NCBI GenBank assembly: GCA_023266335.1
Contig: JAHFQJ010000002.1
Location: 1-64,000, forward strand
Direction of reading: 5' to 3'
Length of the DNA stretch: 64,000 nucleotides
Source of the DNA: Burkholderiaceae bacterium
GTDB lineage: Bacteria; Pseudomonadota; Gammaproteobacteria; Burkholderiales; Burkholderiaceae
Made by a program: the position numbers and the translations under genes. Under the pieces are notes generated by a model. It did not search any database. It worked only from the letters and a program-made list of their open reading frames with translations, and was not told the origin of the DNA. Shown one piece after another: positions 23,991-45,926 of this stretch (its first letter is position 1; each line of letters starts with the position of its first letter).

Positions 23991-24007
23991 ATTTTTTATA
24001 GGTTATT

Positions 24008-24740: not shown

Positions 24741-24797
24741 GTAATAAATACGGCGGCTTTTAAAGCATGATAGTTATTAAAGCAAAGGGTATGAAAC

Positions 24798-26285
24798 ATG
24801 AGTAATAAAGAAGTATTAATTTTAGTTGATGTATTAGCTAGAGAAAAAAACGTTGACAAAAATATTGTATTCGCTGCTTTAGAATTAGCTTTAGCATCTG
24901 CAACTAAAAAAAGGCATCACAAACAATTTAATGAAGATTTAGATGTTCGCATAGAAATGGATAGACAAACAGGGGAATATACCAGTTACCGTAGATGGCT
25001 GGTTGTGCCGAATGAACAAGGCTTGCAGGTTCCTGATAAAGAAATTTTATTATTTGAAGCACAAGAAGATTTACCTGAAATAGAAGTCAATGATTTTTTA
25101 GAAGAAGAAATAGAGTCGATTGAATTTGGACGTATTGGAGCTCAAGCTGCCAAGCAAGTTATTTTGCAAAAAATTAGAGAAGCAGAGAGAGAACAAGTAA
25201 TTAATGATTTCCTTGAACGCGATGATAAAATTGCTATGGGAGTTGTTAAACGTGCAGATAGGTTTGGCTTGATTATTGAAAGCGGTAAGGTTGAGCTTTT
25301 GCTTAGGCGCGAAAATATGATACCAAAAGAAAATATTCGTGCGGGGGATAGGGTAAGAGGCTATATTATAAAAGTAGATAAAGAAGCAAGAGGACCACAT
25401 ATTGAAATTTCACGTACATCACCGGAATTTTTGATTAAATTATTTGAAAATGAAGTACCGGAAATTCAGCAAGGCTTGTTACAAATTGTTTCAGCTGTTA
25501 GAGATCCTGGTTTAAGAGCAAAAATTTCTGTTAGAGCAATTGATAAAAAAATTGACCCTATAGGAACTTGTGTTGGTATGAGAGGTTCAAGAGTAACATC
25601 AGTCCGCAGTGAAATTTGTAATGAAGCAGTAGATATTGTAGTATGGGCAGATGAACCAGCACAATATGTAATCAATTCTTTATCGCCCGCTCAAGTAAAA
25701 TCAATTTTGGTAGATGAAGAAACTCAAACAATAGAAGTAGTAGTTGATGAACAAGAGCTTGCAATTGCAATTGGAAGAAATGGACAAAATGTTAAATTAG
25801 CCAGCGAATTAACCGGATGGAAAATTGACATACTAACTTCTGAAGAATCTGAACAAAAACAACAAATTGAGCTAGAAAAAGTGTATAATCTGTTTAAAAG
25901 TAATCTTAAGGTAGATGATGAAGTAGTCTCTCTATTACTAGATAATGGATTTAATAGCTTAGAAGAGATTGCTTATGTTCCTATCAGCGAATTGCATGAA
26001 ATAGGTTTAAGTGATGATGATTTGCAGATTGTACGCAGTAGGGCAAGAGAGGCATTACTTACAATAGAACTCGTAGCTGAAGAAAATATAGATAATACAA
26101 ATGTTGAGCTTAGAAATATTGATGGAATAACACCAGATATTTTATCGACTTTAGCGTCGCAAAACATCAATTCTTTGGATGATTTGGCGGAGTTATCAAC
26201 AGATGAATTAATCGAATATGTTGATATAAATGAAGAACAGGCAAAAGCATTAATATTAAAAGCCAGAGAACATTGGTTTAATTAA
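24798..26285 (+). CDS. nusA: Transcription termination/antitermination factor NusA
   Basis: A 495-aa protein with the full proteobacterial domain order: N-terminal RNAP-binding domain (1-~130), S1 domain (IAMGVVKRADRFGLIIESGKVELLLR, about 135-200), two KH domains (RVSPEFLIKLFENEVPE-like start; CVGMRGSRV; IAIGRNGQNVKLASELTGW), and two C-terminal acidic repeats (about 370-420 and 440-490). It binds RNA polymerase and modulates pausing, termination and antitermination. infB follows after 46 bp. Confidence 0.96.
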   Translation: MSNKEVLILVDVLAREKNVDKNIVFAALELALASATKKRHHKQFNEDLDVRIEMDRQTGEYTSYRRWLVVPNEQGLQVPDKEILLFEAQEDLPEIEVNDFLEEEIESIEFGRIGAQAAKQVILQKIREAEREQVINDFLERDDKIAMGVVKRADRFGLIIESGKVELLLRRENMIPKENIRAGDRVRGYIIKVDKEARGPHIEISRTSPEFLIKLFENEVPEIQQGLLQIVSAVRDPGLRAKISVRAIDKKIDPIGTCVGMRGSRVTSVRSEICNEAVDIVVWADEPAQYVINSLSPAQVKSILVDEETQTIEVVVDEQELAIAIGRNGQNVKLASELTGWKIDILTSEESEQKQQIELEKVYNLFKSNLKVDDEVVSLLLDNGFNSLEEIAYVPISELHEIGLSDDDLQIVRSRAREALLTIELVAEENIDNTNVELRNIDGITPDILSTLASQNINSLDDLAELSTDELIEYVDINEEQAKALILKAREHWFN

Positions 26286-26331
26286 TAACAGTTTGCAATT
26301 TTGAAACATCAATTAGAAGGTAATATTACAC

Positions 26332-29300: not shown

Positions 29301-29430
29301 CTTTAAAGATGATGTTAAAGAAGTTAAGCAGAGTTTTGAATGCGGATTATCTATTAAAAATTACCAAGATATACACGAGCTTGACCAGCTGGAAGTTTTT
29401 GAAACTATAGAGGTAGCACGTAGTTTATAA
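26332..29430 (+). CDS. infB: Translation initiation factor IF-2
   Basis: A 1032-aa GTPase that places initiator tRNA on the 30S subunit. An IF2_N module is at the start ([21 protein letters not shown]). A very long Asn/Lys/Ser-rich, low-complexity linker runs from about 60 to 440, and a second IF2_N module ([24 protein letters not shown]) precedes the GTPase: G1 GHVDHGKT, G3 DTPGHEA, G4 NKID, G5 VSAKAG. Domains II, III and IV follow. The linker is Asn-rich rather than Ala/Glu/Arg-rich as in GC-rich relatives, reflecting AT bias. Confidence 0.96.
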
Positions 29431-29501
29431 TAGTATTTATAATCTTAAGTTACTAATGCATACCTCCTAAAACTATTATTAAACTCGAAAATTTATTATA
29501 T

Positions 29502-30290
29502 ATGTCTTCTATTCTTGTATTTGATATTGAAACTATACCTGATGCAGAGGGCTTAGTTAAATTAGAACTTATCCCTAATTCTGATGAAAAAAGTGTTGAT
29601 GAATATTTGTTAAAGTTAAAAGAAGAAAAAAAAACGGATTTTTTGCCATTACATCTGCATAAAATTATTGCTATATCATGTGTGCTAAGAAGGCAAAATA
29701 AATCTGCTGAACAAGAGATTTTTGTTAACTCATTAGGTAGTTCAATTAGCAGTGAAGAAGAAATAATACAAAAATTTTATAGTTTAATTGATAGATACCA
29801 ACCACAGCTTATTTCATGGAATGGCAGTGGTTTTGATCTTCCAGTATTGCATTATCGTGGATTAATTAATAATGTAAGTGCATATCAATATTGGGATATG
29901 GGTGATAGAGCAGACTTTAATAGTAAAGAATATAAATGGAATAATTATATTAGCCGTTATCACTTACGCCATATAGATTTGATGGATTTATTATCTTTAT
30001 ATCAGCCTAAAGCTTATGCTAAGATGGACGACATGGCAAAACTGTGTAATTTACCAGGTAAACTTGGTATGGATGGAAGCCAAGTGTGGTCTGAATATAA
30101 AAAAGGTAATATTGATCAAATCAGGGCTTATTGTGAAACGGATGTAGCAAATACATATTTACTTTATCAAAAGTTTAATAGTATGCGTTTTGGAGATTCA
30201 AATCTCTTTGTAAAAGAAAAAGAATTTTTAAAATGCAGCTTAGATTCTTCACAAAAACACTGGCAGGAATATTTAGTTAAATTAGCATAG
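29502..30290 (+). CDS. PolB-type 3'-5' exonuclease-like protein
   Basis: A 262-aa DnaQ-fold nuclease of the predicted PolB-like 3'-5' exonuclease group (DNA_pol_B_exo2). ExoI motif FDIETIP is at residues 6-12, ExoII ISWNGSGFDLPVL near 105-117, and ExoIII with YCETDVANTYLLY near 212-224. It probably acts on single-stranded DNA, but its biological role is not established. Convergent with the TauE/SafE gene, 9 bp apart. Confidence 0.82.
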   Translation: MSSILVFDIETIPDAEGLVKLELIPNSDEKSVDEYLLKLKEEKKTDFLPLHLHKIIAISCVLRRQNKSAEQEIFVNSLGSSISSEEEIIQKFYSLIDRYQPQLISWNGSGFDLPVLHYRGLINNVSAYQYWDMGDRADFNSKEYKWNNYISRYHLRHIDLMDLLSLYQPKAYAKMDDMAKLCNLPGKLGMDGSQVWSEYKKGNIDQIRAYCETDVANTYLLYQKFNSMRFGDSNLFVKEKEFLKCSLDSSQKHWQEYLVKLA

Positions 30291-30299
30291 GCGGCTATA

Positions 30300-31100
30300 T
30301 TATTCTATTTTAGAAAATATCATTCTTAAAGTAAGAACAATGCATAATGCAAGTAAGAAGTATGCATATATGGTTTTAAGTTTTTTAGTATCTATTTTAT
30401 GGGCAATTTTTGCTCCTAAGACAGCAGTTGCACTTGTTAGAGGACATATAATTAATAATGCCGGCCAGTAAATTAGACCTAAAGTATTAGCAACTGGTAT
30501 AGCTTTTTGAGAATAAACTATCGTACTAGTAAGTGCAATAGGTAACCCCAGCCCTGCTGATGTTGCGATTGCATTGTGTATAGGTATTCCAAGATATAAT
30601 AACAGCGGAACAGTTAAAAATCCTCCGCCAACTCCAATTACGCTTGAAATTCCAGCAATCACAAATCCTGCTCCTATAAACAAAAATTTTGGTATTTTGT
30701 GTTCTATATCATATTGAGGGTTTGGATTAAGTTTAAAAATAGTCTGCATAGCAATAAGCAATATAAATAAAATAAATACTATATGAACAAATTCTCCGCT
30801 TAACTTTGTAAAAATAAAATTTCCTGTAACAGAAGAGCCAACAATTACGCCGATTGACATAAATACAAGTATTTTTACTTTCACAGCTTTGTGCCTAAAA
30901 TGACTTATGCTGGAAAATATAGATGTGAAAAGAATTACACAAGTGGACGTTGCAATCGCTACATGGTTAACATAGACATCAGGAATATTTAAACTTATCA
31001 TAAACGTAGGAACTAAAATAGATCCTCCGCCAATGCCCATGAGTCCTGCTAGCATTCCGGAAATAATTCCTGCGATAATGAATAAAAAATAATGTAACAT
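30300..31100 (-). CDS. TauE/SafE-family membrane permease
   Basis: A 266-aa protein with eight predicted membrane segments. Two related halves each start with a glycine-rich motif: GMLAGLMGIGGGSILVP and GISSVIGVGGGFLTVPLLL. This is the hallmark of the TauE/SafE (DUF81) family that exports small anions such as sulfite or sulfoacetate. The substrate cannot be told from sequence and no sulfur-metabolism gene is adjacent. Confidence 0.88.
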   Translation of the reverse strand: MLHYFLFIIAGIISGMLAGLMGIGGGSILVPTFMISLNIPDVYVNHVAIATSTCVILFTSIFSSISHFRHKAVKVKILVFMSIGVIVGSSVTGNFIFTKLSGEFVHIVFILFILLIAMQTIFKLNPNPQYDIEHKIPKFLFIGAGFVIAGISSVIGVGGGFLTVPLLLYLGIPIHNAIATSAGLGLPIALTSTIVYSQKAIPVANTLGLIYWPALLIICPLTSATAVLGAKIAHKIDTKKLKTIYAYFLLALCIVLTLRMIFSKIE

Positions 31101-31681
31101 AGTTTGTCGAAATGATTTATATATTTATATACGTTAATATATCTATTATAAAATACTTACTCTTTTTATATAGCTCTACCTATGGAATAAATAGGCTAAA
31201 TAAGTAAAATTTAGACTATTTATTAAAATAATTTTTAATAACTTTTATCAATAGTATATTAAGTAGAAATAATTATGTTACTTGATGATATTAATTAATA
31301 TACTACATTATATATAAAATTATATCTAGTTTATTATTGTTTCATACTTGTCTTTATATACTAATTGTAGTTCATTTTGCGGCATGGCGGTATGAATAAA
31401 TTTTGACGACTATGTACACATTATTACATTGATGGCGAAGCCATGAGCCTGCAAACAATAATTTTGACGGTAACTAATAAACGAAGTCCACAAATTGGAA
31501 TCTGGTTAGTATATATATTAGTATAGATCTGCCAATAAAAATATAATGTATACGTTGGTTTTTATATACAATTATATTTAAAATTAGTAATTAAATTGAT
31601 TATTGTATATATTAACCGATTATTAGATGGCTAAGTGAAGAATGAGAGTTAATTTATAATTTGCTATATAAAGGTAAAATT
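31101..31681. other. 580-bp intergenic region containing one family A element
   Basis: The gap separates the divergent TauE/SafE and ppsR genes. Apart from the family A element (31357-31513), it is very AT-rich with no ORF. Both promoters must lie here, but no hexamer pair stands out. Confidence 0.5.
31357..31513 (+). repeat. Family A inverted-repeat element, long form
   Basis: This 157-bp copy begins TATACTAATTGTAGTTCATT and ends TCTGGTTAGTATA. Left and right ends are imperfect inverted repeats over about 26 bp. The interior has GGCGGTATGAATAAA, a TTTTGACG direct repeat (near 31401 and 31463) and the TGGCGAAGCCA hairpin. It is the best-preserved copy in the window. Confidence 0.8.
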
Positions 31682-32509
31682 ATGCATACTGAATTACATA
31701 CGGATTTAAAAAAATTTGATAGAGTTGTTTATATAGTATCTGATGGAACTGGAATAACTGCTGAAAAATTTTCCACCTCTCTTTTAGCTCAATTTGATAT
31801 AACTTATCATATTATACGTATACCTTTTATAGATAATATGGAAAAAGCAAACAATTTAATTGATAAAATAAACTGTATAAATCATCATAATAAGCCAATT
31901 CTTTTTACAACTTTAGTAAATCAACAGGTAAGTAATATAGTGCATAAAGCTAATGCTTTTATTGTTGATTTATTTCAGGCATTTGTACAGCCTTTAGAAC
32001 AAGAATTATGTTTAAAATCAAGCCATGCAATTAATCGCTCGCACCAAATTGGAAATATTGAAGTTTATGAAAAGAGAATTGAAGCTATTAATTTTTCTCT
32101 CGGTCATGATGATGGTCAAAGCCATGCAAATTTAGCGCAGGCAGATATTATATTAGTAGGAGTATCGCGCAGCGGTAAAACCCCCACTTCATTATATTTA
32201 GCTATGCAGCATGGTTTAAAAGCAGCAAATTATCCCTTAATACCAGAAGACTTTGCCCGCCTAGAACTGCCAAGTATTTTATTAAAATATACAAATAAAC
32301 TTTTTGGTTTAACAATAGAACCTAACCGTTTGTCTGATATTAGGCACGAAAGAAAGCCTAATAGCATCTATGCCAGTTTGCAGAATTGCCGTTATGAGGT
32401 TTTAGAAGCAGAAAAATTAATGCGCCGGCATAATATTGAGTGTTTATCCACTACTCATAAATCAATTGAAGAAATAGCAACTACAATTTTACAAATAATA
32501 TATATATAG
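31682..32509 (+). CDS. ppsR: Pyruvate, water dikinase regulatory protein (DUF299)
   Basis: A 275-aa bifunctional kinase/pyrophosphorylase that inactivates or reactivates PEP synthase by phosphorylating a threonine. The start at 31682 has AAAGG 8 bp upstream; an upstream TTG (31661) would add seven residues and is less likely. Present are VYIVSDGTGITAEKF at the N-terminus, the P-loop GVSRSGKTPTSLYLA and NYPLIPEDF. Together with pckG at the window end it points to gluconeogenic control; ppsA itself is not in the window. Its stop is 2 bp from the convergent gspI stop. Confidence 0.93.
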   Translation: MHTELHTDLKKFDRVVYIVSDGTGITAEKFSTSLLAQFDITYHIIRIPFIDNMEKANNLIDKINCINHHNKPILFTTLVNQQVSNIVHKANAFIVDLFQAFVQPLEQELCLKSSHAINRSHQIGNIEVYEKRIEAINFSLGHDDGQSHANLAQADIILVGVSRSGKTPTSLYLAMQHGLKAANYPLIPEDFARLELPSILLKYTNKLFGLTIEPNRLSDIRHERKPNSIYASLQNCRYEVLEAEKLMRRHNIECLSTTHKSIEEIATTILQIIYI

Positions 32510-32511
32510 TT

Positions 32512-32895
32512 TTAGCGTGATTTTTGTAATAAGGTAAAACTTCTCTCGATTGGTGTTCTAGCATTTTTATCCGTAAACACTAAAATTTCTGCTGATATAA
32601 TGTAGCGATTAGGAGTATTTTTAGTATTTAACTGGCATTCGAAAGGTAAATCTTCAGCACATGTATACCTCACACCGCTATTCGCAATATTTTGGCTTAG
32701 CATAAGTTCGATTAATATATTTCTAGATAAAATAGCTGCCAAAATATTTTGCTGTAACTTTGAATAATTAGTAATAGTATTGGTAATAGTTCTTTGGGCG
32801 GCAAGCAAACTTGTGCTAATTATTATCAATGCTACTAACACTTCAATTAAAGTCAAGCCGCTAGATTTACATCTGTATTTTTTTATGCATTTCAT
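32512..32895 (-). CDS. gspI: Type II secretion minor pseudopilin GspI
   Basis: A 127-aa prepilin-like protein: basic leader, cleavage site SSG|LTLIEVLVAL (Gly13, Glu18 equivalent to mature Glu5), hydrophobic helix, then a short C-terminal domain with AEILVFTDKN. GspI caps the T2SS pseudopilus with GspJ and GspK. Its ATG overlaps the gspH stop by 4 bp, so they are translationally coupled. gspJ and gspK are not downstream. Confidence 0.75.
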   Translation of the reverse strand: MKCIKKYRCKSSGLTLIEVLVALIIISTSLLAAQRTITNTITNYSKLQQNILAAILSRNILIELMLSQNIANSGVRYTCAEDLPFECQLNTKNTPNRYIISAEILVFTDKNARTPIERSFTLLQKSR

Positions 32896-33464
32896 TCTGT
32901 CTGCTGATTATTTTTATTACGTCCGTAAAGTAAGTGATTTTTTTTCTTATTCATGGATTCTTTATGCTCCGCTTCATTATTATCAATTCTTTTACTTTCA
33001 TTTGTCTCATATTTCAGATTTATCGGTTTGGTTTTATACCTTCCGCTTCCATCTCCAGCTAATATAATTTTATAGATACCTTTGGTTAAAGATATATGGA
33101 ATGGATTTTGTAAAGGTTCTTGTGTAATAGTACGCTGCCAAGTAGAAATTTGATTTTTAACAGGACTCCAGCCTAATTTAGAATCAATTTCTTCTATATT
33201 CCATCTATAGTTACTAAGCATATTATTTGCGCTGCTGCTATTTGTACTTATGCCATGCTGATTAACTATGATTGTAAGAGGTATGTCCTGCATTTGGCTT
33301 TCATGCTGCATTATTTCTAGTACATCGCCTAAGTATTCAGCATCTTGTAAAAGTTGTCTGGGTACACTTGGCTTTGTAACTAATGTTACTATGACTAAGG
33401 TCATACCAATAATTCCAATAATTATCATCAATTCCAGTAATGTATATCCTTTTTTTGTATTCAT
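32892..33464 (-). CDS. gspH: Type II secretion minor pseudopilin GspH
   Basis: A 190-aa prepilin-like protein with a very short leader, KKG|YTLLELMIIIGIIG (Gly6, Glu11), and a GspH/FimT-like beta domain containing an LLQDAEYLGDVLEIMQHESQ helix. It has an unusual charged, Asn/Lys-rich C-terminal tail of about 35 residues. The pseudopilus tip role is inferred from family and gene order gspG-H-I. A family B element separates it from gspG. Confidence 0.75.
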   Translation of the reverse strand: MNTKKGYTLLELMIIIGIIGMTLVIVTLVTKPSVPRQLLQDAEYLGDVLEIMQHESQMQDIPLTIIVNQHGISTNSSSANNMLSNYRWNIEEIDSKLGWSPVKNQISTWQRTITQEPLQNPFHISLTKGIYKIILAGDGSGRYKTKPINLKYETNESKRIDNNEAEHKESMNKKKNHLLYGRNKNNQQTE

Positions 33465-33516
33465 TATTTTATACCAAATTTGCCTTTTAATTTAATGTAC
33501 ATATCTCTCATTCAAA

Positions 33517-33613
33517 TATACTCATCTCAATTAGATTTCGGGCAAAGCAAAAGCAAAATTTTCGGCACAGATATTACAAATACTACAGCCTAAAATTCAA
33601 GTGTGATGAATTT
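33517..33613 (+). repeat. Family B inverted-repeat element between gspG and gspH
   Basis: The element begins TATACTCATCTCAATTAGAT and ends AAAATTCAAGTGTGATGAAT, matching the two ends of the other B copies. It fills most of the 157-bp gap in what is otherwise a compact gspG-H-I set. Confidence 0.68.
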
Positions 33614-33621
33614 ATAATAGA

Positions 33622-34080
33622 TTATTCCCAATTTCCAATATCAGCATTTATACCTTCGCCGCCTATTTCTTTATCTTTACCATAAGTAAAAATATCTGCA
33701 TCGCTATGTATTCCTGGAGTGATATATTGATATTCATTCCCCCACGGGTCTTTAGGTATTTTTTCTAAATAGCCGCCGTCTTTCCAATTTTTAGCTGTAG
33801 GCACGGCTGATGGTTTTTCAACTAAAGCCTTTAATCCTTGCTCTGTGGTTGGATATCTTCCATTATCTAATCTATAAAGTTTTAATGCACTTGAAATAGT
33901 TGCAATATCTTGCTTAACCGCAACTTTAGCTGCATCGTCAGCCCTTCCCATTACTTTTGGCAGCACTAATCCTGCCAGCATTGCAATAATTGCAATCACA
34001 ATCATAATTTCAATTAAAGTGTAACCGACCTTTAATTTAAATGATGTATATGTAAGATTTAAATTTTTATTGTGTCTCAT
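33622..34080 (-). CDS. gspG: Type II secretion major pseudopilin GspG
   Basis: I prefer the ATG at 34080 (152 aa): AGGA lies 8 bp upstream; an in-frame TTG at 34107 would add nine residues. The leader ends KVG|YTLIEIMIVIAIIAMLAGLV (Gly19, Glu24 = mature Glu5). The GspG signature follows: QDIATISSALKLYRLDNGRYPTTEQGL, DPWGNEYQY and the calcium-loop region near the C-terminus. It is the main subunit of the T2SS pseudopilus in the periplasm. The remaining gsp genes must be elsewhere. Confidence 0.92.
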   Translation of the reverse strand: MRHNKNLNLTYTSFKLKVGYTLIEIMIVIAIIAMLAGLVLPKVMGRADDAAKVAVKQDIATISSALKLYRLDNGRYPTTEQGLKALVEKPSAVPTAKNWKDGGYLEKIPKDPWGNEYQYITPGIHSDADIFTYGKDKEIGGEGINADIGNWE

Positions 34081-34133
34081 ATTTGAATTCCTAATATTGT
34101 GAATCAAACTTTTAGTTGGATATTATCGCATTA

Positions 34134-35660
34134 TTATTTTATTTTTTCTAATGCCTTAATAATTGCCATAGCTTTATTTTGAGTTTCCTGCCATTCTGTT
34201 TCTCTAACAGAATCTGCTACAATTCCTGCACCAGCTTGTATATACACAGTATCATTTTGAATAACTGCAGTGCGGATTGCAATTGCAATATCCATTTCTC
34301 CATTAAAAGACATATAGCCAACCCCGCCGCCGTATATATGCCTTGCAGACGGCTCTAATTCTGAAATAATCTGCATAGCACGAACTTTAGCTGCGCCGGA
34401 TAAAGTCCCAGCCGGAAATACCGCTTTTAAAATGTCCATATTATTGACAGACTCATTAATTTCCCCCTCTACAGAACTAACAATATGCTGTACATGAGAA
34501 TATTTTTCAATATGCATATGCTGTGTAACTTTCACACTGCCTATTTTTGCAATTCTTCCAATATCATTTCTGGCTAAATCAATTAACATGGTATGTTCTG
34601 CACACTCTTTTGCATCAGCAAGTAAATCTTCGGCTAATTGATTATCTTGCTCTTCATCTATTCCACGCACTCTAGTGCCGGCAATTGGTCTTAAGGTTAC
34701 ATAATGCTTTGCATCATGCCTCACTTCATGCCTGACTAAAAGTTCAGGAGAACTTCCTACAATTTGCGTATCTCCAAAACAATAATAATACATATATGGA
34801 GATGGATTTAACTGCCTTAATTCACGATATAATAAAATAGGATCAGAAGTAAATTCTTTCTGCATGCGTTGTGATAGAACAACCTGCATAATATCGCCTG
34901 ATTTTATATATTCTTTAGCCCTATCAACTGCTTTCATATATTCTGATTGAGATGAATATATAAATTTACCATTTAATTTAGAAGTTTTATTGCGGGTTTT
35001 AATAACATGATGAGCATTATTATCTTCTAATTTTTCACACAATTCTTTTAGCCTAACTATTGCATTTTCATAAGAATTTGCTAAATTAGGATCTGCATAA
35101 ACAATTATTTTTAGACTTCCTCTCAAATTATCAACCACAACCAATTCATCACACAATAATAATTTAATATCAGGCAGATTAATTTCATCTTGAGCATTTT
35201 GTTTGGGAATGCCTAAACATGGCTCTATATGATGAACAGTTTCATAGCTAAAATAACCAACCCAGCCGCCGCAAAATCTTGGCATATTCTCTAATATTAA
35301 AGCTTTATAGTTATTTTGTAGATTATGAATAATATCTAATACATTTTCATTTTTAGAATTTTCTATTTTCTGTATAAGATGGTTATTTTCATATAATTCA
35401 ATACAAGAATTTTGTGCAAACCCGCTGCTTTGAATATAGCTAGTTGACGGTAATCCAATATAAGAATAACGCCCAAATCTTTCACCGCCAATCACAGATT
35501 CCAATAAAAAAGAATTTTTGCGCTGATTACCGGTTAATTTTAAATAAATAGATAAAGGAGTATCTAAATCAGCATTAATTTCTATAATTAGCGGAACTTT
35601 ATTATATTCTTTATTTTTATAGCTATAAAATTCTTGCTGTGTAAGGTTAATATTTTGCAT
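34134..35660 (-). CDS. trpE: Anthranilate synthase component I
   Basis: A 508-aa chorismate-using enzyme that makes anthranilate with the TrpG glutaminase. N-terminal LLESVIGGERFGRYSYIG carries the feedback-site LLES motif. The C-terminal chorismate-binding domain includes QVVLSQRM, GSSPELLVR, RPIAGTRVRG, DEQDNQLAEDLLADAKECAEH, HIVSSVEG and FPAGTLSGAAKVRAM. trpG, trpD and trpC, often linked, are absent. No leader peptide with tandem Trp codons is visible upstream, where a family B element lies 38 bp before the start. Confidence 0.96.
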   Translation of the reverse strand: MQNINLTQQEFYSYKNKEYNKVPLIIEINADLDTPLSIYLKLTGNQRKNSFLLESVIGGERFGRYSYIGLPSTSYIQSSGFAQNSCIELYENNHLIQKIENSKNENVLDIIHNLQNNYKALILENMPRFCGGWVGYFSYETVHHIEPCLGIPKQNAQDEINLPDIKLLLCDELVVVDNLRGSLKIIVYADPNLANSYENAIVRLKELCEKLEDNNAHHVIKTRNKTSKLNGKFIYSSQSEYMKAVDRAKEYIKSGDIMQVVLSQRMQKEFTSDPILLYRELRQLNPSPYMYYYCFGDTQIVGSSPELLVRHEVRHDAKHYVTLRPIAGTRVRGIDEEQDNQLAEDLLADAKECAEHTMLIDLARNDIGRIAKIGSVKVTQHMHIEKYSHVQHIVSSVEGEINESVNNMDILKAVFPAGTLSGAAKVRAMQIISELEPSARHIYGGGVGYMSFNGEMDIAIAIRTAVIQNDTVYIQAGAGIVADSVRETEWQETQNKAMAIIKALEKIK

Positions 35661-36179: not shown

Positions 36180-36513
36180 AATCTTGATATATGTATATTT
36201 CAGTATTAACTTCATCATGTTTCAAGTTTTCAATATAAATTCACAATTTAATACTTATACAAACATTTTAAATATAAATTAATTTTAATATATAAATTAG
36301 ATTTAAAATAATTCTCTCTAGCTTTTTTTCTTTAGTTCCCATCAATTCCTACGAGCTATAAGTTATATAAAATACAAATGCAAATTGCATAAGTAAATTA
36401 GAATATATTTTATGAAACAAATTCAAAAATCCTTATAACTAATTGCCATTTTTTAGCTGTACTTGGCGTATAATTATTGCTTAGCAAGTCATGTTAGCAT
36501 AAAGGTATTATTA
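36180..36513. other. 334-bp AT-rich gap between tRNA-Asp and hsdR
   Basis: No gene is seen. No repeat of the tRNA-Asp 3' end was found that would mark an attachment site. A TATAAT at 36469-36474 could be the hsdR -10 box, with TTGCCA 20 bp upstream as a poor -35. Confidence 0.4.
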
Positions 36514-39477
36514 ATGAGAGAACAAGAAATTGAAAATCAGTTTATAGAAAAACTGATTGAACTCAAATATATTTATCGTGATGATATTACAGATATAGCT
36601 GCTTTAACCGATAATTTTAGAAATAAATTTGAGGAGTTAAACAAAGTAAAACTTGAAAATAGCGAGTTTTCTAGGCTTTTAGAAAATATAATTAGTGCTG
36701 ATGTTTTTAAATCATCAAAGATTTTACGTGAGTATAACAGTTTTGAACGTGATGATGGAACGCCTTTTGATTATAAGTTAGTTAATATTAAAGACTGGTG
36801 TAAAAATACCTTTGAAGTTATTAGGCAGCCTCGTTTTAATACTGAAAGTAGTTTCCACCGCTATGATGTAATTTTGTTAATTAATGGCATACCTATAGCA
36901 CAGGTTGAACTCAAAACTCTAGAAATTAGCCCGCGTCGTGCTATACAACAAATTATTGATTATAAAAATGATGCAGGCAATGGATACAGTAAAACACTAT
37001 TATGCTTTATTCAAATTTTCATTGTAAGCAATCAAAGTGATACTTGGTACTTTGCTAATAATAATAATCGACATTTTAGCTTTGATGCAGATGAGCGTTT
37101 TTTACCTTGTTATCAGTTTGCTGAAGAGAATAATAATAAAATTACACATTTACACAGTTTTGCTGATAAATTTTTAGCTAAATGTATTTTAGGTCAAATG
37201 ATTAGTCATTATATGGTGTTAGTAAATAGCGAACAAAAATTACTAATTATGCGGCCGTATCAAATTTATGCTGTTAAAGCCATTGTTGATTGTATTCATC
37301 AAAATTGCGGTAATGGCTATATTTGGCACACTACGGGCAGCGGTAAAACATTAACATCTTTTAAGGCTTCAACTCTGCTTAAAGATAATGAGGATATATA
37401 TAAATGCTTATTTGTAGTAGACCGTAAAGATTTGGATAGACAAACCCGTGAAGAGTTTAACCGCTTTCAAGAGGGTTGTGTTGAGGAAAATACCAATACT
37501 GAGAATTTGGTAGAACGTTTACTATCTGACAATAAAATAGATAAAGTTATTGTTACCACTATACAAAAGCTCGGGCTTGCATTAGACGGTAATAATAAAC
37601 ATAAATATAAGCAAAGGCTGGAGTTCCTTCAAGATAAGCGCATAGCTTTTATTTTTGATGAATGTCATCGCTCACAATTTGGTGAAAATCACAAAGCCAT
37701 CAAAGAATTTTTTCCTAAATCACAACTATTTGGCTTTACAGGCACACCTATCTTTGATAATAATGCCAACTATCAAAAAATAGAAGGAGAAAAAGCTTCA
37801 TATAAAACTACTGAAGATATTTTTCAGAAACAACTTCATGCCTACACCATTACTGAGGCTATTGATGATAGAAATGTATTAAAATTTCATGTGTATTATT
37901 ATGAAGGTACAGGAGCAGATAAAAAAATAGCCCAGCAAACAATCGCTGAAAAACAAGCTATAATTGAAACTATATTTGAAAAGCATGATATATCTACTAA
38001 TTTACGTAAATTTAATGCCATATTAGCCACTGCTTCAATTAATGATGCGATTCAATATTATAATTTATTTGAAAGTATGCAGGCTGAAAAGAAAAAAGAT
38101 ATTAACTTCAAACCCTTAAATATAGTTTGTATATTTTCTCCGCCAGCTGAAGGTAATCCGGAAGCAAAGCAATTACAAGAAGATTTACTACAAGAAAGAG
38201 AAGATAATAAACAAAATCCTCAAGAGAAAAAACAAGCTTTAAAAAAGATAGTAACAGCTTATAACACAATGTATAAAACTAATCATACTATCAATGAGTT
38301 TGATTTATACTATCAAGATGTACAAAAACGTATTAAAGACCAGCAATATTCTAATCAAGATTTACCTCATCATGAAAAAATTGATATAACTATTGTTGTA
38401 GATATGCTCCTTACAGGCTTTGATTCTAAATTTTTAAATACGTTATATGTAGATAAAAATCTAAAATACCATGGACTAATTCAAGCATTTTCACGTACTA
38501 ACCGTATTTTAAATGATACTAAACCTTATGGAAATATTATAGATTTTAGAGGACAAAAAGCAGAAGTAGACCAAGCTATTGAATTGTTTTCCGGACAAGA
38601 ACAAGATGAAAAAGCTAAAGAAATTTGGCTAGTAGATGAAGCTCCTAAAGTTATTAATGAACTAGAACAAGCGTTTAAAGAACTTGAAAAATTTATGCAA
38701 GTGCAAGGGCTGGAAAATAAACCTGAGCAAGTAGCTAATTTAAAAGGCGATATAGCCCGCAGCCAATTTATCAATTTATTTAAAAAAGTACAAAGACTCA
38801 AAACACAGCTTGACCAATATACTAATTTAACTGATGTTAATAAAAAAGACATTGAACAAATTCTACCTAAAGATGAATTTAGAGGCTTTAAAGGCGTGTA
38901 TTTAGAAACAGCTTACCGCTTGAAGGAAAAGCAGGATAAAAATAAAGATTTAGCCCAAGAAGTACAACAGTTAGATTTTGAATTTGTTTTATTTGCCTCA
39001 AATGTAATTGATTATGATTATATTATGCGTTTGCTTGCAAAATGCTCAAATGAAACTCCAGAACAGCAAAAAATTACTAAACTATTTTTAATAGACACAA
39101 TTCGTGCAGATGCTAAATTTGTTGATGATTATGAAGATATAAAGGAATATATAGAAACTTTAAATTTTAAAACTGGCTTAGCCATGGAACAAATCAAACA
39201 AGGATATATAGAATTTAAACAGCAAAAAAATGCTGCTGAAATTTCTGCTATTGCTTTAAAACATAATTTAGATTCAGCTAGTTTACAAAATTTTATTGAT
39301 AGTATAATCAAACGTATGATTTTTGATAGTGAACAATTAAGGGATTTACTCGAACCGCTAGAGCTAGGCTGGAAAGCTCGAGGGCAAAAAGAATTAGAAA
39401 TAGTGAAAGATTTACTGCCATTATTAAATAAATTAGCAGGTGAAAGGGAAATATCAGGGCTAAAAGCTTATGAATAA
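36514..39477 (+). CDS. hsdR: Type I restriction enzyme, R subunit
   Basis: The ATG at 36514 has AAAGG 8 bp upstream; the open frame extends further without a site. The 987-aa protein has an N-terminal PD-(D/E)XK nuclease (Asp118 in HRYDVILL, Glu132-Leu-Lys134 in AQVELK). SF2 translocase motifs follow: Walker A TTGSGKT, DECHRSQFG (DEAD-type box), FGFTGTPIF and VVDMLLTGFDSK with QAFSRTNR. A helical C-terminal region binds the methylase core. It translocates and cuts unmethylated DNA when assembled with HsdM and HsdS. hsdM lies 4.8 kb away, with hsdS and other accessory genes between. Confidence 0.94.
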   Translation: MREQEIENQFIEKLIELKYIYRDDITDIAALTDNFRNKFEELNKVKLENSEFSRLLENIISADVFKSSKILREYNSFERDDGTPFDYKLVNIKDWCKNTFEVIRQPRFNTESSFHRYDVILLINGIPIAQVELKTLEISPRRAIQQIIDYKNDAGNGYSKTLLCFIQIFIVSNQSDTWYFANNNNRHFSFDADERFLPCYQFAEENNNKITHLHSFADKFLAKCILGQMISHYMVLVNSEQKLLIMRPYQIYAVKAIVDCIHQNCGNGYIWHTTGSGKTLTSFKASTLLKDNEDIYKCLFVVDRKDLDRQTREEFNRFQEGCVEENTNTENLVERLLSDNKIDKVIVTTIQKLGLALDGNNKHKYKQRLEFLQDKRIAFIFDECHRSQFGENHKAIKEFFPKSQLFGFTGTPIFDNNANYQKIEGEKASYKTTEDIFQKQLHAYTITEAIDDRNVLKFHVYYYEGTGADKKIAQQTIAEKQAIIETIFEKHDISTNLRKFNAILATASINDAIQYYNLFESMQAEKKKDINFKPLNIVCIFSPPAEGNPEAKQLQEDLLQEREDNKQNPQEKKQALKKIVTAYNTMYKTNHTINEFDLYYQDVQKRIKDQQYSNQDLPHHEKIDITIVVDMLLTGFDSKFLNTLYVDKNLKYHGLIQAFSRTNRILNDTKPYGNIIDFRGQKAEVDQAIELFSGQEQDEKAKEIWLVDEAPKVINELEQAFKELEKFMQVQGLENKPEQVANLKGDIARSQFINLFKKVQRLKTQLDQYTNLTDVNKKDIEQILPKDEFRGFKGVYLETAYRLKEKQDKNKDLAQEVQQLDFEFVLFASNVIDYDYIMRLLAKCSNETPEQQKITKLFLIDTIRADAKFVDDYEDIKEYIETLNFKTGLAMEQIKQGYIEFKQQKNAAEISAIALKHNLDSASLQNFIDSIIKRMIFDSEQLRDLLEPLELGWKARGQKELEIVKDLLPLLNKLAGEREISGLKAYE

Positions 39478-39501: not shown

Positions 39502-39918
39502 ATGCAACAAGAAAATTTAAATCTAGATATATTTGAAAAAGCAGTTTACTCTCTAAAAGATGCTTTAAATGAATATGCAAAAGATAAAGAAAATGTTTAT
39601 GTACGTGATTCATGTATTAAACGTTTTGAATATTGTTATGATTTATCTACAAAAATCATCAAGCGTTTTTTAAGTATAAGCTCTGAAAATATAGATGATA
39701 TAAAAAGTATGGATTTTCAAAATATTATACGGCTTGCATATACGAAAAAAATCCTAAAAAACAGCTGGGATAAATGGTGGGCATACAGAGATAATCGCAA
39801 TAAAACATCACATGGCTATGATGAGCATAATGCAATTAACATTGTTGATGAGCTTGAATTATTTTATAGTGAAATTGTGTTTTTACTACAAGTGTTAAAG
39901 AATAAAAATGAACCATAA
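39502..39918 (+). CDS. HepT-like HEPN protein (nucleotidyltransferase substrate-binding, HI0074 family)
   Basis: A 138-aa all-helical protein. The HEPN motif R-x4-H is present as RNKTSH (Arg99, His104), and it continues HGY, giving the full R-x4-H-x-Y pattern of HepT toxins, where the Tyr (here Tyr106) is the residue AMPylated by the MntA antitoxin. The preceding KNSWDKWWAYRDNRNK matches the HI0074/NTase_sub_bind family. The mntA-like gene overlaps it by 11 bp. HepT is an RNase toxin in studied systems; activity here is inferred. GGAATTC lies upstream of the start. Confidence 0.82.
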   Translation: MQQENLNLDIFEKAVYSLKDALNEYAKDKENVYVRDSCIKRFEYCYDLSTKIIKRFLSISSENIDDIKSMDFQNIIRLAYTKKILKNSWDKWWAYRDNRNKTSHGYDEHNAINIVDELELFYSEIVFLLQVLKNKNEP

Positions 39919-40219
39919 TATTGATATATCGCCACAAGAATATGATATTGTTAAAAATATATTAAAAAAACATTTGCCAAAAGATTGTAAAGTATGGGTT
40001 TTTGGTAGTAGAGCAAAAAATAAAACTCGTTTTAATTCAGATTTGGATTTGGCAATACAATATATACAGCCATTGAGACAAAAACAAATATTTGATTTGG
40101 AGCAAGCCTTTATTGAATCTCTTTTACCTTATGAAGTAGATATTATTGATATGAACAACATTAGTGATAGCTTTAAAGAAATTGTGCAGCAGCAGGCTAT
40201 TTTATTGGATATAAAGTAA
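39908..40219 (+). CDS. MntA-like minimal nucleotidyltransferase (antitoxin)
   Basis: A 103-aa minimal nucleotidyltransferase. GSRAKNKTRFNSDLDLAI (33-50) gives the G-S-x(10)-D-x-D signature (Asp45, Asp47), and Asp78 in EVDIID is the third metal ligand. In HepT/MntA pairs it AMPylates the toxin and neutralises it. It overlaps the HEPN gene and is followed 2 bp later by hsdS, so hsdR-hepT-mntA-hsdS look like one transcript. Confidence 0.85.
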   Translation: MNHNIDISPQEYDIVKNILKKHLPKDCKVWVFGSRAKNKTRFNSDLDLAIQYIQPLRQKQIFDLEQAFIESLLPYEVDIIDMNNISDSFKEIVQQQAILLDIK

Positions 40220-40221
40220 AT

Positions 40222-41528
40222 ATGAAAAAAGAATTAGTGCCAAAATTGAGGTTTACAGAGTTTAAGGATAGTGGGGAATGGGAGGATATAAAGTTAGAGA
40301 AATTATGTGAAAAAATTACTCAAGGCGGAACACCAGATACTACAAAAATAAATTATTGGAACGGTAATATTCAATGGCTAACTCCAGCAGAAATGGGAAA
40401 AACAGAAAATTATTTTATATATTCTACTAATAGAACGATAACTGAATTAGGATTAAAAAATTGTTCATCAATTTTATTACCTATTAATAGCATAATAATA
40501 TCTACAAGAGCTCCTATTGGTCATTTAGCTATAAATAAATCTAATATGGCAATTAATCAAGGGTGTAAAGGATTAATAATAAATAAAGAAAATCATTATA
40601 TTTTTTTATACTATATACTTTTTAAAAATAAGAATGAGCTAAATGATTTAGGTGCTGGAAATACTTTTAAAGAATTAAGTTCTAGCATTCTTAAAAATTT
40701 TAAAATAATTATTCCCTTACTACAAGAACAAAAAAAAATCGCCGATTGCCTTTCATCAATTGATGAATTAATTGACTTACAAACTCAAAAAGTTGAAAGT
40801 TTAAAACAACATAAAAGAAGCTTAATGCAAAAACTTTTTCCTAAAGAAGGTAAAATTTTGCCGGAATGGCGGTTTCCAGAGTTTAGAGATAGCGGGGAGT
40901 GGGAGGAGGTAAAAATAAGAGAAGTTTTAGAGTATGAGAGACCAGAAAAACATATAGTTAAAAATACAGAATATAAAAAATATGGAATTCCAGTTTTAAC
41001 AGCTAATAAAAGTTTTATTCTTGGTTATACTGATGAATTAGCTAATATATATGAAAAAATACCTGTAATAATTTTTGATGATTTTACAACAGATAAAAAA
41101 TATGTAAATTTTCCTTTCAAAATAAAATCTTCAGCTATAAAAATTTGAGAGTGTTCATTTAGATAGTTATTTTTAAGATTTTGGAAATCTAAACCTAATA
41201 AACATAAGGCTTTGAATTTTTAAATTTACAGAAAAGCTATCTATATTTAATACTCTCAAAAATTTTAAAAGTAATGGATAAAAATAATCTTAAATTAATT
41301 TTTGAGATTATGAATAAAATTAATTTTAATTTTTCAGACCATAAAAGATACTATATATCTGAATATCAAAATTTAAATATATTACTTCCAAAATATCAAG
41401 AACAACAAAAAATCGCTGATTGCCTTTCATCAATCGATGAATTAATTGAATTACAAACCAATAAAATAGAAAGCTTAAAACAACATAAAAAAGGCTTGAT
41501 GCAGGGGCTTTTTCCTAGTGAGGAATAA
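40222..41528 (+). pseudogene. hsdS: Type I restriction specificity subunit, split by a MITE-like insertion
   Basis: The first 308 codons hold target recognition domain 1 (about 20-165), a central conserved helix (EQKKIADCLSSIDELIDLQ) and most of domain 2 before a TGA at 41146-41148. The rest resumes in another frame at 41266 with the second conserved helix (EQQKIADCLSSIDELIELQ) and ends at 41528. Deleting 41147-41265 (111-bp insert plus one 8-bp duplicate) joins ATT to TTA and gives a continuous 395-codon gene, a normal HsdS length. As it stands a 308-aa truncated subunit could be made; truncated HsdS can sometimes work as dimers, so loss of function is likely but not certain. Confidence 0.9.
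41147..41257 (+). mobile_element. 111-bp MITE-like insertion in hsdS
   Basis: The ends are inverted repeats: GAGAGTGTTCATTTAGATAG on the left and CTATCTATATTTAATACTCTC on the right, matching over about 20 bp with a few mismatches. AAAAATTT flanks both sides (41139-41146 and 41258-41265) as an apparent 8-bp target duplication. It has no ORF and must have moved in trans. Ends and duplication length differ from families A-C. No parent insertion sequence is in the window. Confidence 0.87.
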
Positions 41529-41538: not shown

Positions 41539-42534
41539 TTACTCCTTTGAATAATCTTTAATTTTTATTACTAATGCAGAATGATAATCTTCATCACTCC
41601 ACATTAAAGCATTGATTTGTAAAAATATTGGTTTTCTATCTAGTGATTTTTTTAATATGTCTTTTTGCAAATCATCAATTGAATTATCTTGAATATCTGC
41701 ATCTAATTCAAGGTTATTTTCAATATTTTGAATTCTAACTTTATATTTTGTTTGAGATGAGACATCAAGTCTCAAAATTTTATACACTCCATCTAATCTT
41801 ACTTCTGATGATGTACGTCTAGCATTCTTCGTTAATAATTCAGCTATTTCTTTTGTGATTTTAATACCTTGTATTTCTGAATTTTCCCCTGCACAAAGTG
41901 CTTTTATGATTTCTGTATGTGCATCATCTGACAATTTACGAATATTATCTATATGATGATTTTTATTAGCCAAACTAGCTATAATTTTTGCTCTTTCCGT
42001 TTCTTCTTTGCTTATAGTTTCTAAAGTTTGCAAAGTTTTTATTTGCGTTTCATCTGATATTTCTTTGTTTCTAATTTCTTTTCTGTTATCTAAATATAGT
42101 TTGTATGCAGTTTTACCAAAGTATGAAACAATAAAAAAAATACCTAAAGTTATGATCACTGTGGGAGTCATATTATCACCTATTTGCTCAATAAATTTTA
42201 CGGCTAATTCTTGAACATTAATTCCAAGATTAGAAGACCCGTCTGTTATTTTAACATTTATTTCTAAATTATTTTTTTCTTCATCATTTAAACGCTTTGA
42301 GGGAGAATTATATTTTGCAGCGGCATATGCTTGATAAATACTTTTTTGAAATTCAACTAGCCCACGCATTACTGTTGGCGTAATACTTTGATTAAATTTA
42401 CTCCCTTCAATATGAATACAAAATAAAGGGAAATTGTTAAAATTGATATCATTAAATTCAATAATTGTGCCATTATTTATATCAGACAATATTTTATAGG
42501 CATCATCTTCATTACTAATATTTATGGTATTCAT
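41539..42534 (-). CDS. Unrecognised one-TM protein in the restriction island
   Basis: A 331-aa protein I cannot place in a named family. The N-terminal ~115 residues are mixed alpha/beta (with FPLFCIHIEGSKFNQSITP and a helix ending in AYAAAKYN). A single membrane helix lies at about 124-144, then a charged helical, probably coiled-coil stretch (145-215), and a beta-rich C-terminal domain (about 225-330) with Trp-containing NALMWSDEDYHSALVIKI at its end. It is the only gene on the opposite strand inside the island and converges on hsdS. Location and architecture are compatible with a defence-related or stress effector, but that is only inference. Confidence 0.72.
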   Translation of the reverse strand: MNTINISNEDDAYKILSDINNGTIIEFNDINFNNFPLFCIHIEGSKFNQSITPTVMRGLVEFQKSIYQAYAAAKYNSPSKRLNDEEKNNLEINVKITDGSSNLGINVQELAVKFIEQIGDNMTPTVIITLGIFFIVSYFGKTAYKLYLDNRKEIRNKEISDETQIKTLQTLETISKEETERAKIIASLANKNHHIDNIRKLSDDAHTEIIKALCAGENSEIQGIKITKEIAELLTKNARRTSSEVRLDGVYKILRLDVSSQTKYKVRIQNIENNLELDADIQDNSIDDLQKDILKKSLDRKPIFLQINALMWSDEDYHSALVIKIKDYSKE

Positions 42535-42741
42535 TTTATTATATTTTTACATTTATCATATAAATTATATCATAAGCAAATCTAATTAAAACTAATTTTT
42601 ACTACAAAAATATGATATGAATTTTTAAGCAACAAATAGACTTAGAAAAACTATTATAACTTGATATAATATAAACTTAAATCAACATAACCAAACAAAA
42701 AACTAAATTAATTAGTTAGAACTATAAATAAAAATAAACTA

Positions 42742-42882
42742 ACGAAACAAACCTATATCGATCCCTTTACCGATTTTGGTTTCAAAAAGCTATTTGGCGA
42801 AGAGGAAAGCAAAGAATATTTAATCGATTTTTTAAACAGCGTATTTTCTGATTTTATCGCACATACACATATAAAAGGATAA
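42742..42882 (+). pseudogene. 5' fragment of an Rpn-type nuclease/transposase gene (duplicate)
   Basis: About 110 bp (42745-42858) is almost identical to 43470-43583 at the start of the complete gene downstream, at a constant offset of 725 bp; only one or two mismatches are seen at the left edge. The fragment encodes YIDPFTDFGFKKLFGEE and what follows through VFSDFI, then diverges and stops at 42882. No start codon is present in frame. It occupies the 350-bp gap upstream of the DUF4160 gene; the rest of that gap (42535-42741) shows nothing else. Confidence 0.85.
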
Positions 42883-42885
42883 ACA

Positions 42886-43158
42886 ATGCCAACTATCTCA
42901 ATGTTTTATGGTATTTTAATAAGAATGTTTTTTAATGATATAAAACAACATAATCTACCGCATATCCATGCCGAATACCAAGGACAAAATGCAGTTTACT
43001 CAATAATTGATGGAGATTTAATATCTGGTAATTTACCAATTAAAAAGCATAAATTAGTTGTAGCATGGATTGAGATTTATCAAGAAGATTTAATGGCTGA
43101 TTGGGAATTAGCTGTAAATGGTAAAAAACCTTTTCCAATTAAAGGACTTAATCAATGA
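42886..43158 (+). CDS. DUF4160 protein
   Basis: A 90-aa protein with the DUF4160 pattern: PTISMFYGILIRMFFNDI, then HNLPHIHAEYQG and a C-terminal WELAVNGKKPFPI. AAAGGA lies upstream of the ATG. DUF4160 genes are repeatedly found next to DUF2442 genes, as here, in an arrangement suggestive of a toxin-antitoxin-like or small accessory module; function is unknown. The stop overlaps the next start (ATGA). Confidence 0.85.
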   Translation: MPTISMFYGILIRMFFNDIKQHNLPHIHAEYQGQNAVYSIIDGDLISGNLPIKKHKLVVAWIEIYQEDLMADWELAVNGKKPFPIKGLNQ

Positions 43159-43394
43159 GAATACTTGATATTATTGTGCAATCAGATTTTATTTTAAAAA
43201 TATTTACCGAAGACGGAAAAATAGGCTTTTTTGATGTAAAGCCGTATCTACATTTTGAGGCTTTTGAACCTTTAAAAAAGTTTGAAGAATTCAAAAAAAT
43301 TTATAATGGCAAATACTATGTAGAGTGGGATTGTGGAGCAGATTTATCTGCAGATAGTGTTGAAGCAGATTTACAGTTGATAGACGATATATAA
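43155..43394 (+). CDS. DUF2442 protein
   Basis: A 79-aa protein containing the DUF2442 features: FILKIFTEDGKIGFFDVKPYLHF, then FKKIYNGKYYVEWDCGADLSADS. It is coupled to the DUF4160 gene by a 4-bp overlap. DUF2442 is sometimes described as a predicted DNA-binding or antitoxin-like partner; not demonstrated. Confidence 0.85.
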   Translation: MRILDIIVQSDFILKIFTEDGKIGFFDVKPYLHFEAFEPLKKFEEFKKIYNGKYYVEWDCGADLSADSVEADLQLIDDI

Positions 43395-43427
43395 AATACT
43401 TTAAAAATTACTTAGTAAAAAAACACC

Positions 43428-44300
43428 ATGACCAAAACAACTAAAAAACCTAAAACATTAGAACCCGTAAAACAAGCCTATATCGATCCCTTTACCGATT
43501 TTGGTTTCAAAAAGCTATTTGGCGAAGAGGAAAGCAAAGAATATTTAATCGATTTTTTAAACAGCGTATTTTCTGATTTTATCCCTCATATCCAAGAGCT
43601 GAATTACCATAAAAATGAGCATTTAGGCAACAAAAAATTAGACAGAAATGTAATATTTGATTTGTACTGCAAAGACCCGCAGGGAAATAGATTTATAATA
43701 GAACTGCAAAAAGCCAAACAGGATTATTTTAGGCAAAGAACATTGTATTACAGCACTTTTGCGATTACAGAACAGGCTAAAAAAGGCAAAGAATGGGATT
43801 TTAATCTAAATCCAGTTTATTGTATAAGTATATTAAACTTTGTTTTAGATGATGGCAAAAGCGATAAATACATCACTAAAGCCAAAATATTAGATATAGA
43901 AACGCATAAAACTGTAATAAACGAGCTGAATTTTGCCTTTATAGAATGCCCAAAATTTAATAAAGATATAAGCAAAAATAGCTCTATGCAAGACAAATGG
44001 CTGTATGTACTAACACATTTAACCCAATTAGATACGAGACCCAAAGAACTGCAGGAAAGGCTGTTTGAGGAATTTTTTCAAAGAGCTAATGTTTTAAAAT
44101 TAAATGCAAAAGAACTAAGCGACTATAATACTAGCCTTTCTTATTACCGTGATGTGCATAATATAGAACATCAAAATGTTGCCAAAGGTAAAATAGAAAA
44201 ACAAGTAGAAATTGCAAAAAAAATGAAACAAAAAGGTTTTGATTTTGAATTAATAGTAGAATTAACAGGCTTAACATTACAAGAAATGCAGGATTTATAA
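43428..44300 (+). CDS. Rpn-family recombination-promoting nuclease / PD-(D/E)XK transposase-like protein
   Basis: A 290-aa protein of the PDDEXK_2/Rpn group: YIDPFTDFGFKKLFGEE at 19-35, VIFDLYCKDPQGNRFIIELQ carrying the D-(x)n-E-x-Q catalytic pattern, KAKQDYFRQRTLYYSTF, and a C-terminal helical tail (ELIVELTGLTLQEMQDL). RpnA-type proteins promote RecA-independent recombination. The duplicated 5' end (42745-42858) suggests a duplication or gene conversion event. hsdM starts 3 bp after its stop. Confidence 0.88.
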   Translation: MTKTTKKPKTLEPVKQAYIDPFTDFGFKKLFGEEESKEYLIDFLNSVFSDFIPHIQELNYHKNEHLGNKKLDRNVIFDLYCKDPQGNRFIIELQKAKQDYFRQRTLYYSTFAITEQAKKGKEWDFNLNPVYCISILNFVLDDGKSDKYITKAKILDIETHKTVINELNFAFIECPKFNKDISKNSSMQDKWLYVLTHLTQLDTRPKELQERLFEEFFQRANVLKLNAKELSDYNTSLSYYRDVHNIEHQNVAKGKIEKQVEIAKKMKQKGFDFELIVELTGLTLQEMQDL

Positions 44301-44303: not shown

Positions 44304-45926
44304 ATGACCAAGCAAGAACAACAACACCTTTTAGGTAAAACCCTTTGGAAAATTGCCGATACATTACGCGGTTCAATGGACGCTGATGATTTTCGTGATT
44401 ACATGCTGTCTTTTTTATTTCTGCGTTATTTATCAGATAATTATGAAACAGGAGCTAAAAAAGAGTTAGGAGCAGAATATCCAAGCGGAATAGCAAACCC
44501 TGATGAAAATATTACTCCATTAAACATATTTTATGAGCAAAATCCTGATGATATTCATGAATTTGAAGATATGATGCGTCGTAGAATGCATTATGTGATT
44601 AAACCAGATTACCTATGGGATAACATTGCTAAATTAGCTAAACAGCAAAGCGAAGAACTTTTACAAACCTTAGATAAAGGTTTTAAGTATATAGAACAGG
44701 ATTCATTTCAAAGCACTTTTAACGGGCTTTTTTCAGAAATTAATTTATATTCAGATAAATTAGGTAAAGATTATACAAGCCGTAACAAAACACTTTGTAA
44801 TATTATAACAAAAATTGCTGATGGATTAGCAGAATTTTCTAAAGATATAGATAGCCTTGGCGATGCTTATGAGTATTTAATTGGGCAATTCGCCTCTGGT
44901 TCAGGTAAAAAAGCCGGGGAGTTTTATACACCGCAGCAAATATCGACTATTTTATCTGAAATTGTTACGCTTGATAGCCAAGACCCTAAATCAGGTAAAA
45001 AAGAACGCCTTAATAACATTCTTGATTTTGCTTGCGGTTCTGGTTCATTACTTTTAAATGTACGTAATAATTTAGGTAATGGCAGCATTAGTAAAATTTA
45101 TGGACAAGAAAAAAATCCTACTACTTATAATTTAGCCCGCATGAATATGCTATTACATGGTGTTAAAGATTCAGAGTTTGAAATTTTTCATGGCGATACA
45201 TTAACGAATGATTGGGAAATGTTAATGGAACAAAACCCTGCTAAAAAGATGTATTTTGATGCAGTTGTTGCTAATCCGCCATTTAGTTACCGATGGGAAG
45301 ATCAGAAAAAGAAAATAGGAGAGGATGATATACGTTTTAAAAACTATGGATTAGCTCCTACTTCTGCAGCAGATTTTGCGTTTTTATTGCATGGTTTCCA
45401 TTTCTTAAAAAATGATGGAGTAATGGCAATTGTTCTACCGCATGGCGTTTTATTTCGCGGGGGAGTTGAAGAGCGTATCCGCCGTAAATTATTAGAAGAC
45501 GGAAATATAGACACAGTTATTGGCTTACCGGCTAATTTATTTTATTCAACAGGCATTCCTGTATGTATTTTGATATTAAAAAAATGTAAAAAAGCTGATG
45601 ACGTATTATTTATCAATGCTAGTCAATCTTTTGACAAAGGCAAACGACAAAATTCTTTATCTGATGAACATATCAATAACATCGTAAATACGTATAAATA
45701 TCGCACACAACAAGAACGTTATTCAAGATGTGTTTCAATGCAGGAAATTATAGAAAATGACTATAATTTAAATATTTCACGTTATATTAGTACAGCTGAA
45801 GCAGATAAAGAAATAGATTTAAAAGAAGTAAATGATAATCTGGTTAGTTTAGAAGAAAAAATTATATTAGCTGCTAATAAACATAATGAGTTTTTAAAAG
45901 AGCTAGGTCTTGCTTTATTGCCCTAA
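44304..45926 (+). CDS. hsdM: Type I restriction-modification methyltransferase, M subunit
   Basis: A 540-aa N6-adenine methyltransferase. It has an N-terminal HsdM_N domain (LWKIADTLRGSMDADDFRDYMLSFLFLRYLS), GEFYTPQQISTIL, the SAM motif I DFACGSGSLLLN and catalytic motif IV NPPFSYRWED. It methylates adenine in the bipartite site dictated by HsdS. In most type I loci hsdM is directly next to hsdS; here it is about 2.8 kb away, behind the accessory genes. It is intact. Confidence 0.96.
   Translation: MTKQEQQHLLGKTLWKIADTLRGSMDADDFRDYMLSFLFLRYLSDNYETGAKKELGAEYPSGIANPDENITPLNIFYEQNPDDIHEFEDMMRRRMHYVIKPDYLWDNIAKLAKQQSEELLQTLDKGFKYIEQDSFQSTFNGLFSEINLYSDKLGKDYTSRNKTLCNIITKIADGLAEFSKDIDSLGDAYEYLIGQFASGSGKKAGEFYTPQQISTILSEIVTLDSQDPKSGKKERLNNILDFACGSGSLLLNVRNNLGNGSISKIYGQEKNPTTYNLARMNMLLHGVKDSEFEIFHGDTLTNDWEMLMEQNPAKKMYFDAVVANPPFSYRWEDQKKKIGEDDIRFKNYGLAPTSAADFAFLLHGFHFLKNDGVMAIVLPHGVLFRGGVEERIRRKLLEDGNIDTVIGLPANLFYSTGIPVCILILKKCKKADDVLFINASQSFDKGKRQNSLSDEHINNIVNTYKYRTQQERYSRCVSMQEIIENDYNLNISRYISTAEADKEIDLKEVNDNLVSLEEKIILAANKHNEFLKELGLALLP

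Follow-up and report, generated by a model that had tools for sequence, protein, structure and literature searches.

A recently inserted 111-bp MITE in the hsdS gene of a type IC-like restriction-modification system

The type I locus

The window, by which we mean the whole stretch of 64,000 nucleotides that was analysed, contains a type I restriction-modification (R-M) operon in which hsdS, the specificity gene, is split by a short insertion. The features, with positions in the window, are as follows.

36463..39477, + strand: hsdR, 1004 aa, intact, EcoR124-like (type IC); PF12008 EcoR124_C, E=6.9e-56; EcoR124I HsdR structures, E~1e-107
39502..39918, + strand: HEPN-like nucleotidyltransferase-binding protein; PF08780; between hsdR and hsdS
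39908..40219, + strand: MNT-like nucleotidyltransferase; PF18765, PF01909; between hsdR and hsdS
40222..41148, + strand: hsdS 5' part, 308 aa, open reading frame; PF01420, E=1.4e-34; PDB 1yf2 and EcoR124I S subunit 7bst
41139..41146, unstranded: left 8-bp target-site duplication, AAAAATTT; perfect direct repeat
41147..41257, + strand: 111-bp MITE, non-autonomous IS1-family derivative (family placement probable); terminal inverted repeats GAGAGTGTTCATTTAGATAG... and GAGAGTATTAAATATAGATAG...
41258..41265, unstranded: right 8-bp target-site duplication, AAAAATTT; perfect direct repeat
41266..41528, + strand: hsdS 3' part, 87 codons, continuing the frame of the 5' part once the MITE and one repeat are removed; PF01420, E=1.6e-6
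44304..45926, + strand: hsdM, 540 aa, intact; N6_Mtase, E=8e-107, and HsdM_N; EcoR124I M subunit 7bst, E=3e-84

All three subunits, HsdR, HsdM and HsdS, match chains of EcoR124I, which places the system with type IC. It is noted that a HEPN/MNT-type gene pair (39502-40219) lies within the operon, and that the interval between hsdS and hsdM (41539-44300) holds a reverse-strand gene, a DUF4160 gene and a PDDEXK_2 (Rpn-like) nuclease gene.

The Pfam family Methylase_S matches both fragments of hsdS. The 5' part encodes the N-terminal target recognition domain (TRD), the conserved helix D1 and about two thirds of the C-terminal TRD, with the match to PF01420 spanning residues 19-196 of 308 and the whole profile, so that the truncated HsdS would retain a complete N-terminal TRD together with D1. 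The 3' part encodes the end of the C-terminal TRD and the conserved helix D2, and the open reading frame that starts at its ATG at 41274 gives 84 aa. The C-terminal TRD in which the MITE lies is a relative of EcoR124I's N-terminal TRD, and the break falls where the alignment reaches residue 99 of the latter protein. Helices D1 and D2 are identical at 36 of 48 positions, and the DNA encoding them (40694-40843 and 41368-41517) forms a 150-bp direct repeat of 81% identity. Recombination between these repeats would remove the MITE and leave an HsdS with a single TRD.

The insertion in hsdS

The initial annotation described a 111-bp insert with inverted-repeat ends and 8-bp flanking repeats, and the positions of all of these are exact to the base. 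The insert has no transposase gene or other coding capacity, its inverted ends pair in the predicted fold, and its target AAAAATTT is an AT-rich sequence in the C-terminal TRD. A stop codon at the MITE junction ends the 5' part of hsdS. When the MITE and one copy of the repeat are removed, the frame is open over 395 codons (308 + 87); the earlier claim of an intact hsdS with two TRDs after excision is thus borne out by the reconstruction of the empty site as well as by the aligned homologues, as described below.

Five homologous HsdS proteins (L040, L042, L044, L045 and L046), all from unrelated bacteria, align through the junction SSAIKI/LK with no insert and no gap, that of L042 having 61% identity over the C-terminal half. 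Since the homologues are uninterrupted at the junction, the element has been inserted into a normal gene and is not a natural part of HsdS. The alternative of ordinary HsdS sequence with a simple frameshift, which the initial annotation had itself raised, is rejected by the same alignment, where the homologues span the junction with no insert. A search of 398 genomes of the family for a near-identical empty hsdS gave only distant HsdS proteins, the best of them with 55% identity over part of the protein.

Copies of the MITE and its probable parent

Copies were searched for in the genome from which the window comes (1.96 Mb in 40 contigs). There are 12 full-length copies, the one in hsdS and 11 elsewhere, all of them identical at 111 of 111 positions and each flanked by a perfect 8-bp duplication of its own, a result far beyond chance; these short, non-coding sequences with terminal inverted repeats and target-site duplications bear out the identification as a MITE. 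Identical copies at different sites imply a very recent burst, in agreement with the earlier statement that the insertion is young. The duplications are AT-rich in almost every case and approximate to a consensus AAAWWTTT. That they match at all 12 sites argues against wrong joins, and a chimeric assembly is rejected on this ground. Outside this genome, the MITE was not found in 100 relatives, where the one 21-bp match is at chance level, and its first 31 bases were absent from viral contigs.

The search for a parent insertion sequence, as had been proposed, points to a resident IS1-family element. Numerous contigs stop roughly 120 bases into a longer element, which begins with GAGAGTGTTAAATATAGATAG and codes for the start of a zinc-ribbon-like protein (MCKCQRCGSESYIRSGK...), followed by an IS1-type DDE domain (PF03400, DDE_Tnp_IS1). 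The genome has 16 left and 18 right ends of this element, giving 11 left/right combinations with a common 8-bp flank, one of which is ambiguous in that one right end fits two left ends. The right end of the MITE is identical to that of the resident element at 22 of 23 positions, while the left ends share GAGAGTGTT and AGATAGTTA only when a one-base gap is allowed. Both have duplications of 8 bp, as in the IS1 family, but the MITE differs from the resident element in having no transposase gene and in its unrelated centre. Since the right ends are nearly identical and the duplications equally long, the resident IS1-family element is likely to mobilise the MITE in trans.

Two further observations concern the IS1-type element itself. 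In one copy (contig C6; positions 1-760 of locus L037) there are two reading frames, one of which passes into the other at nine consecutive A; this may be a frameshift site like those of other IS1 elements. In addition, a single IS copy is divided between the two ends of contig C36 (L022 and L137), where its ends share an 8-bp flank and lie within a Rep3-type gene, so that the contig is probably a 28-kb circular plasmid.

Distribution of the insertions

Five of the 12 copies lie inside genes, and four of these five are in four different R-M systems: the type I hsdS of the window, the specificity part of a type IIG enzyme-methylase gene (contig C29), a type III mod gene (C9) and a type III res gene (C16). 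The fifth is in a phage tail tape-measure gene (C39). One of the remaining copies is about 90 bp upstream of the type IIG gene, and the rest are intergenic. The families of the genes hit were checked with Pfam and PADLOC. In the reconstructed empty site, each of the four R-M genes reads through the insertion point without a change of frame. The type IIG gene carries a second lesion, an in-frame TAA upstream, and the res gene carries another, a frameshift, so that neither could be restored by excision of the MITE; in hsdS and the C9 mod gene no further damage is visible, and there reversion would be possible.

Note also the surroundings of these genes. In the 20000-34813 stretch of C29 (L085) the MITE copies are at 7857-7967, i.e., the upstream one, and at 11088-11198, inside the type IIG gene, whose in-frame stop lies between the two. 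Relative to the R-M gene, all five R-M-linked copies (in L085, L086, L089 and the window), counting the upstream one, point the same way. In the 13000-27000 stretch of C16 (L123), two AbiL-like genes (AbiLi and AbiLii by PADLOC, 6245-8016) lie between the type III mod gene and the broken res gene. In the 174000-190000 stretch of C9 (L120), another type III mod gene (6831-8483) is without the N-terminal domain found in the mod gene at 218 kb of that contig, and no reading frame homologous to that domain lies upstream; this gene may be decayed as well.

An inventory from family searches and selected stretches of the genome gives about six R-M systems, which take up about 30 kb in total (1.5% of the genome); four of them are hit. 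The probability that at least 4 of 12 copies fall in R-M genes is about 2e-5 under uniform insertion and about 2e-3 with a threefold target preference, values that serve only as a guide because the pattern was recognised in hindsight and from four events.

It could be that the concentration is a coincidence, with R-M genes, being AT-rich and dispensable, gathering insertions without any selection for losing restriction, and we give this a little less than an even chance. The GC content of the R-M genes is low (22-32%, versus 31% in the window), the target weight of most of the AT-rich ones exceeding the mean by a factor of 1.2 to 2.2, and copies of the resident IS1 element have entered other dispensable classes, namely a helicase gene and the rep gene of a plasmid. 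By contrast, even if R-M genes are preferred twofold and just 20% of the genome is taken as dispensable, four R-M hits among five intragenic copies have P~2e-3, and of about 17 IS1 copies none is recognised in an R-M gene among the flanks that were identified (Fisher p~0.02 versus the MITE).

It could also be that one short mobile element governs what becomes of the whole R-M repertoire of the cell, its burst having been selected for disarming or retargeting several R-M systems at once, for example to admit foreign DNA, with single insertions being revertible. This we consider improbable.

Discussion

Based on these data, our preferred reading, to which we give a probability of about 80%, is that of recent decay or retargeting, where an IS1-mobilised MITE has entered a type IC hsdS and the original specificity has been lost. 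The resident IS1-family transposase would move the MITE in trans. The insertion at the AT-rich target in the C-terminal TRD of hsdS has duplicated 8 bp and brought a stop codon to the junction; hsdR and hsdM are intact. The original bipartite specificity would in this way be removed, leaving a type I system that would be inactive or, with less certainty, have been given a new target by homodimerisation of the truncated HsdS. The insertions presumably persist because the R-M genes are dispensable here and under relaxed or negative selection. Precise excision would then be a possible rare reversion rather than an evolved switch.

The initial annotation called the insertion precisely reversible and considered that excision might act as a switch. 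The perfect duplication and the in-frame empty site on which the first of these statements was based do hold, but reversibility itself is deduced from them and not observed. A phase switch, in which precise excision and reinsertion of the MITE turn hsdS on and off within the population, would draw on these two features and on the ability of the terminal repeats to pair, since such pairing can promote slippage from one 8-bp repeat to the other; reversible insertions of IS elements are also known in other genes, as with IS1301 and IS492. On the other hand, precise excision is rare for IS1-type elements, and the single assembly available has no empty allele. Moreover, two of the four R-M genes hit (two of the three besides hsdS) have second lesions, and the copies in the phage tail gene and at intergenic sites indicate that the MITE is not dedicated to R-M genes. 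The switch is thus unsupported and in our estimation very improbable. As far as can be judged from the sequence, the evidence favours recent loss of specificity, with possible retargeting, over an evolved switch.

It was also stated in the initial annotation that excision would turn restriction and methylation back on. This presumes that the truncated HsdS is dead, whereas loss of the C-terminal TRD in type IC systems, including by Tn5 insertion in EcoDXXI, has given active homodimers with a new palindromic specificity, and the natural NgoAV system works as a homodimer with palindromic specificity (PMC3874165, section 26). For this reason an off state cannot be assumed here. Rather, the 308-aa HsdS could pair with itself and so direct HsdM and HsdR to a symmetric bipartite site that is new and derives from the half-site of the N-terminal TRD. 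The anatomy is that of EcoDXXI with Tn5 in the C-terminal TRD, of EcoR124I(delta50) and of natural NgoAV, all of type IC (PMC3874165), and the host system is type IC-like by its EcoR124_C domain and its PDB matches to the R, M and S subunits of EcoR124I. The similarity of D1 and D2 (see above) also agrees with such pairing, helix similarity having been offered as the reason why type IC helices can replace each other (PMC3874165). However, about 90 residues of the broken C-terminal TRD are still attached, more than in EcoR124I(delta50), and the protein could misfold or be degraded; the AlphaFold model of the truncated HsdS, with a mean pLDDT of 51.8, is too poor to judge this. We therefore hold self-pairing to be possible, with perhaps one chance in three.

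This genome offers a view of a single MITE burst that has disrupted three types of R-M system, and is therefore relevant to how barriers to gene transfer come to be lost. A report of one MITE hitting several R-M systems was not found in the literature, the coverage of which is incomplete.

Finally, we compare the locus with known systems. The element is of a known kind, while the pattern of R-M hits is unusual. MITEAba12 of Acinetobacter, with its mobiliser ISAba12, is likewise a MITE of 111-114 bp with target-site duplications that a resident IS mobilises into AT-rich targets (PMC6382973), but it has another IS parent, a 9-bp duplication and GGCTTTGTTGCAC-type ends, and is known for disrupting hns and not R-M genes. 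As in NgoAV, hsdS here is a naturally split type IC gene, the first reading frame of which holds a full N-terminal TRD and the C-terminal part of which is broken; the difference is that the break here is a MITE with target-site duplications, and that any activity of the product here is putative. There is also a likeness in anatomy to EcoDXXI hsdS::Tn5, where a transposable element likewise lies in the C-terminal TRD of a type IC subunit and leaves the N-terminal TRD and helix D1 intact, except that the element there is Tn5 and here a natural 111-bp MITE, and that a new specificity is known for EcoDXXI and is only a candidate here. The present locus may thus be viewed as a natural counterpart of that classic laboratory result, the retargeting of a type IC enzyme by transposon insertion.
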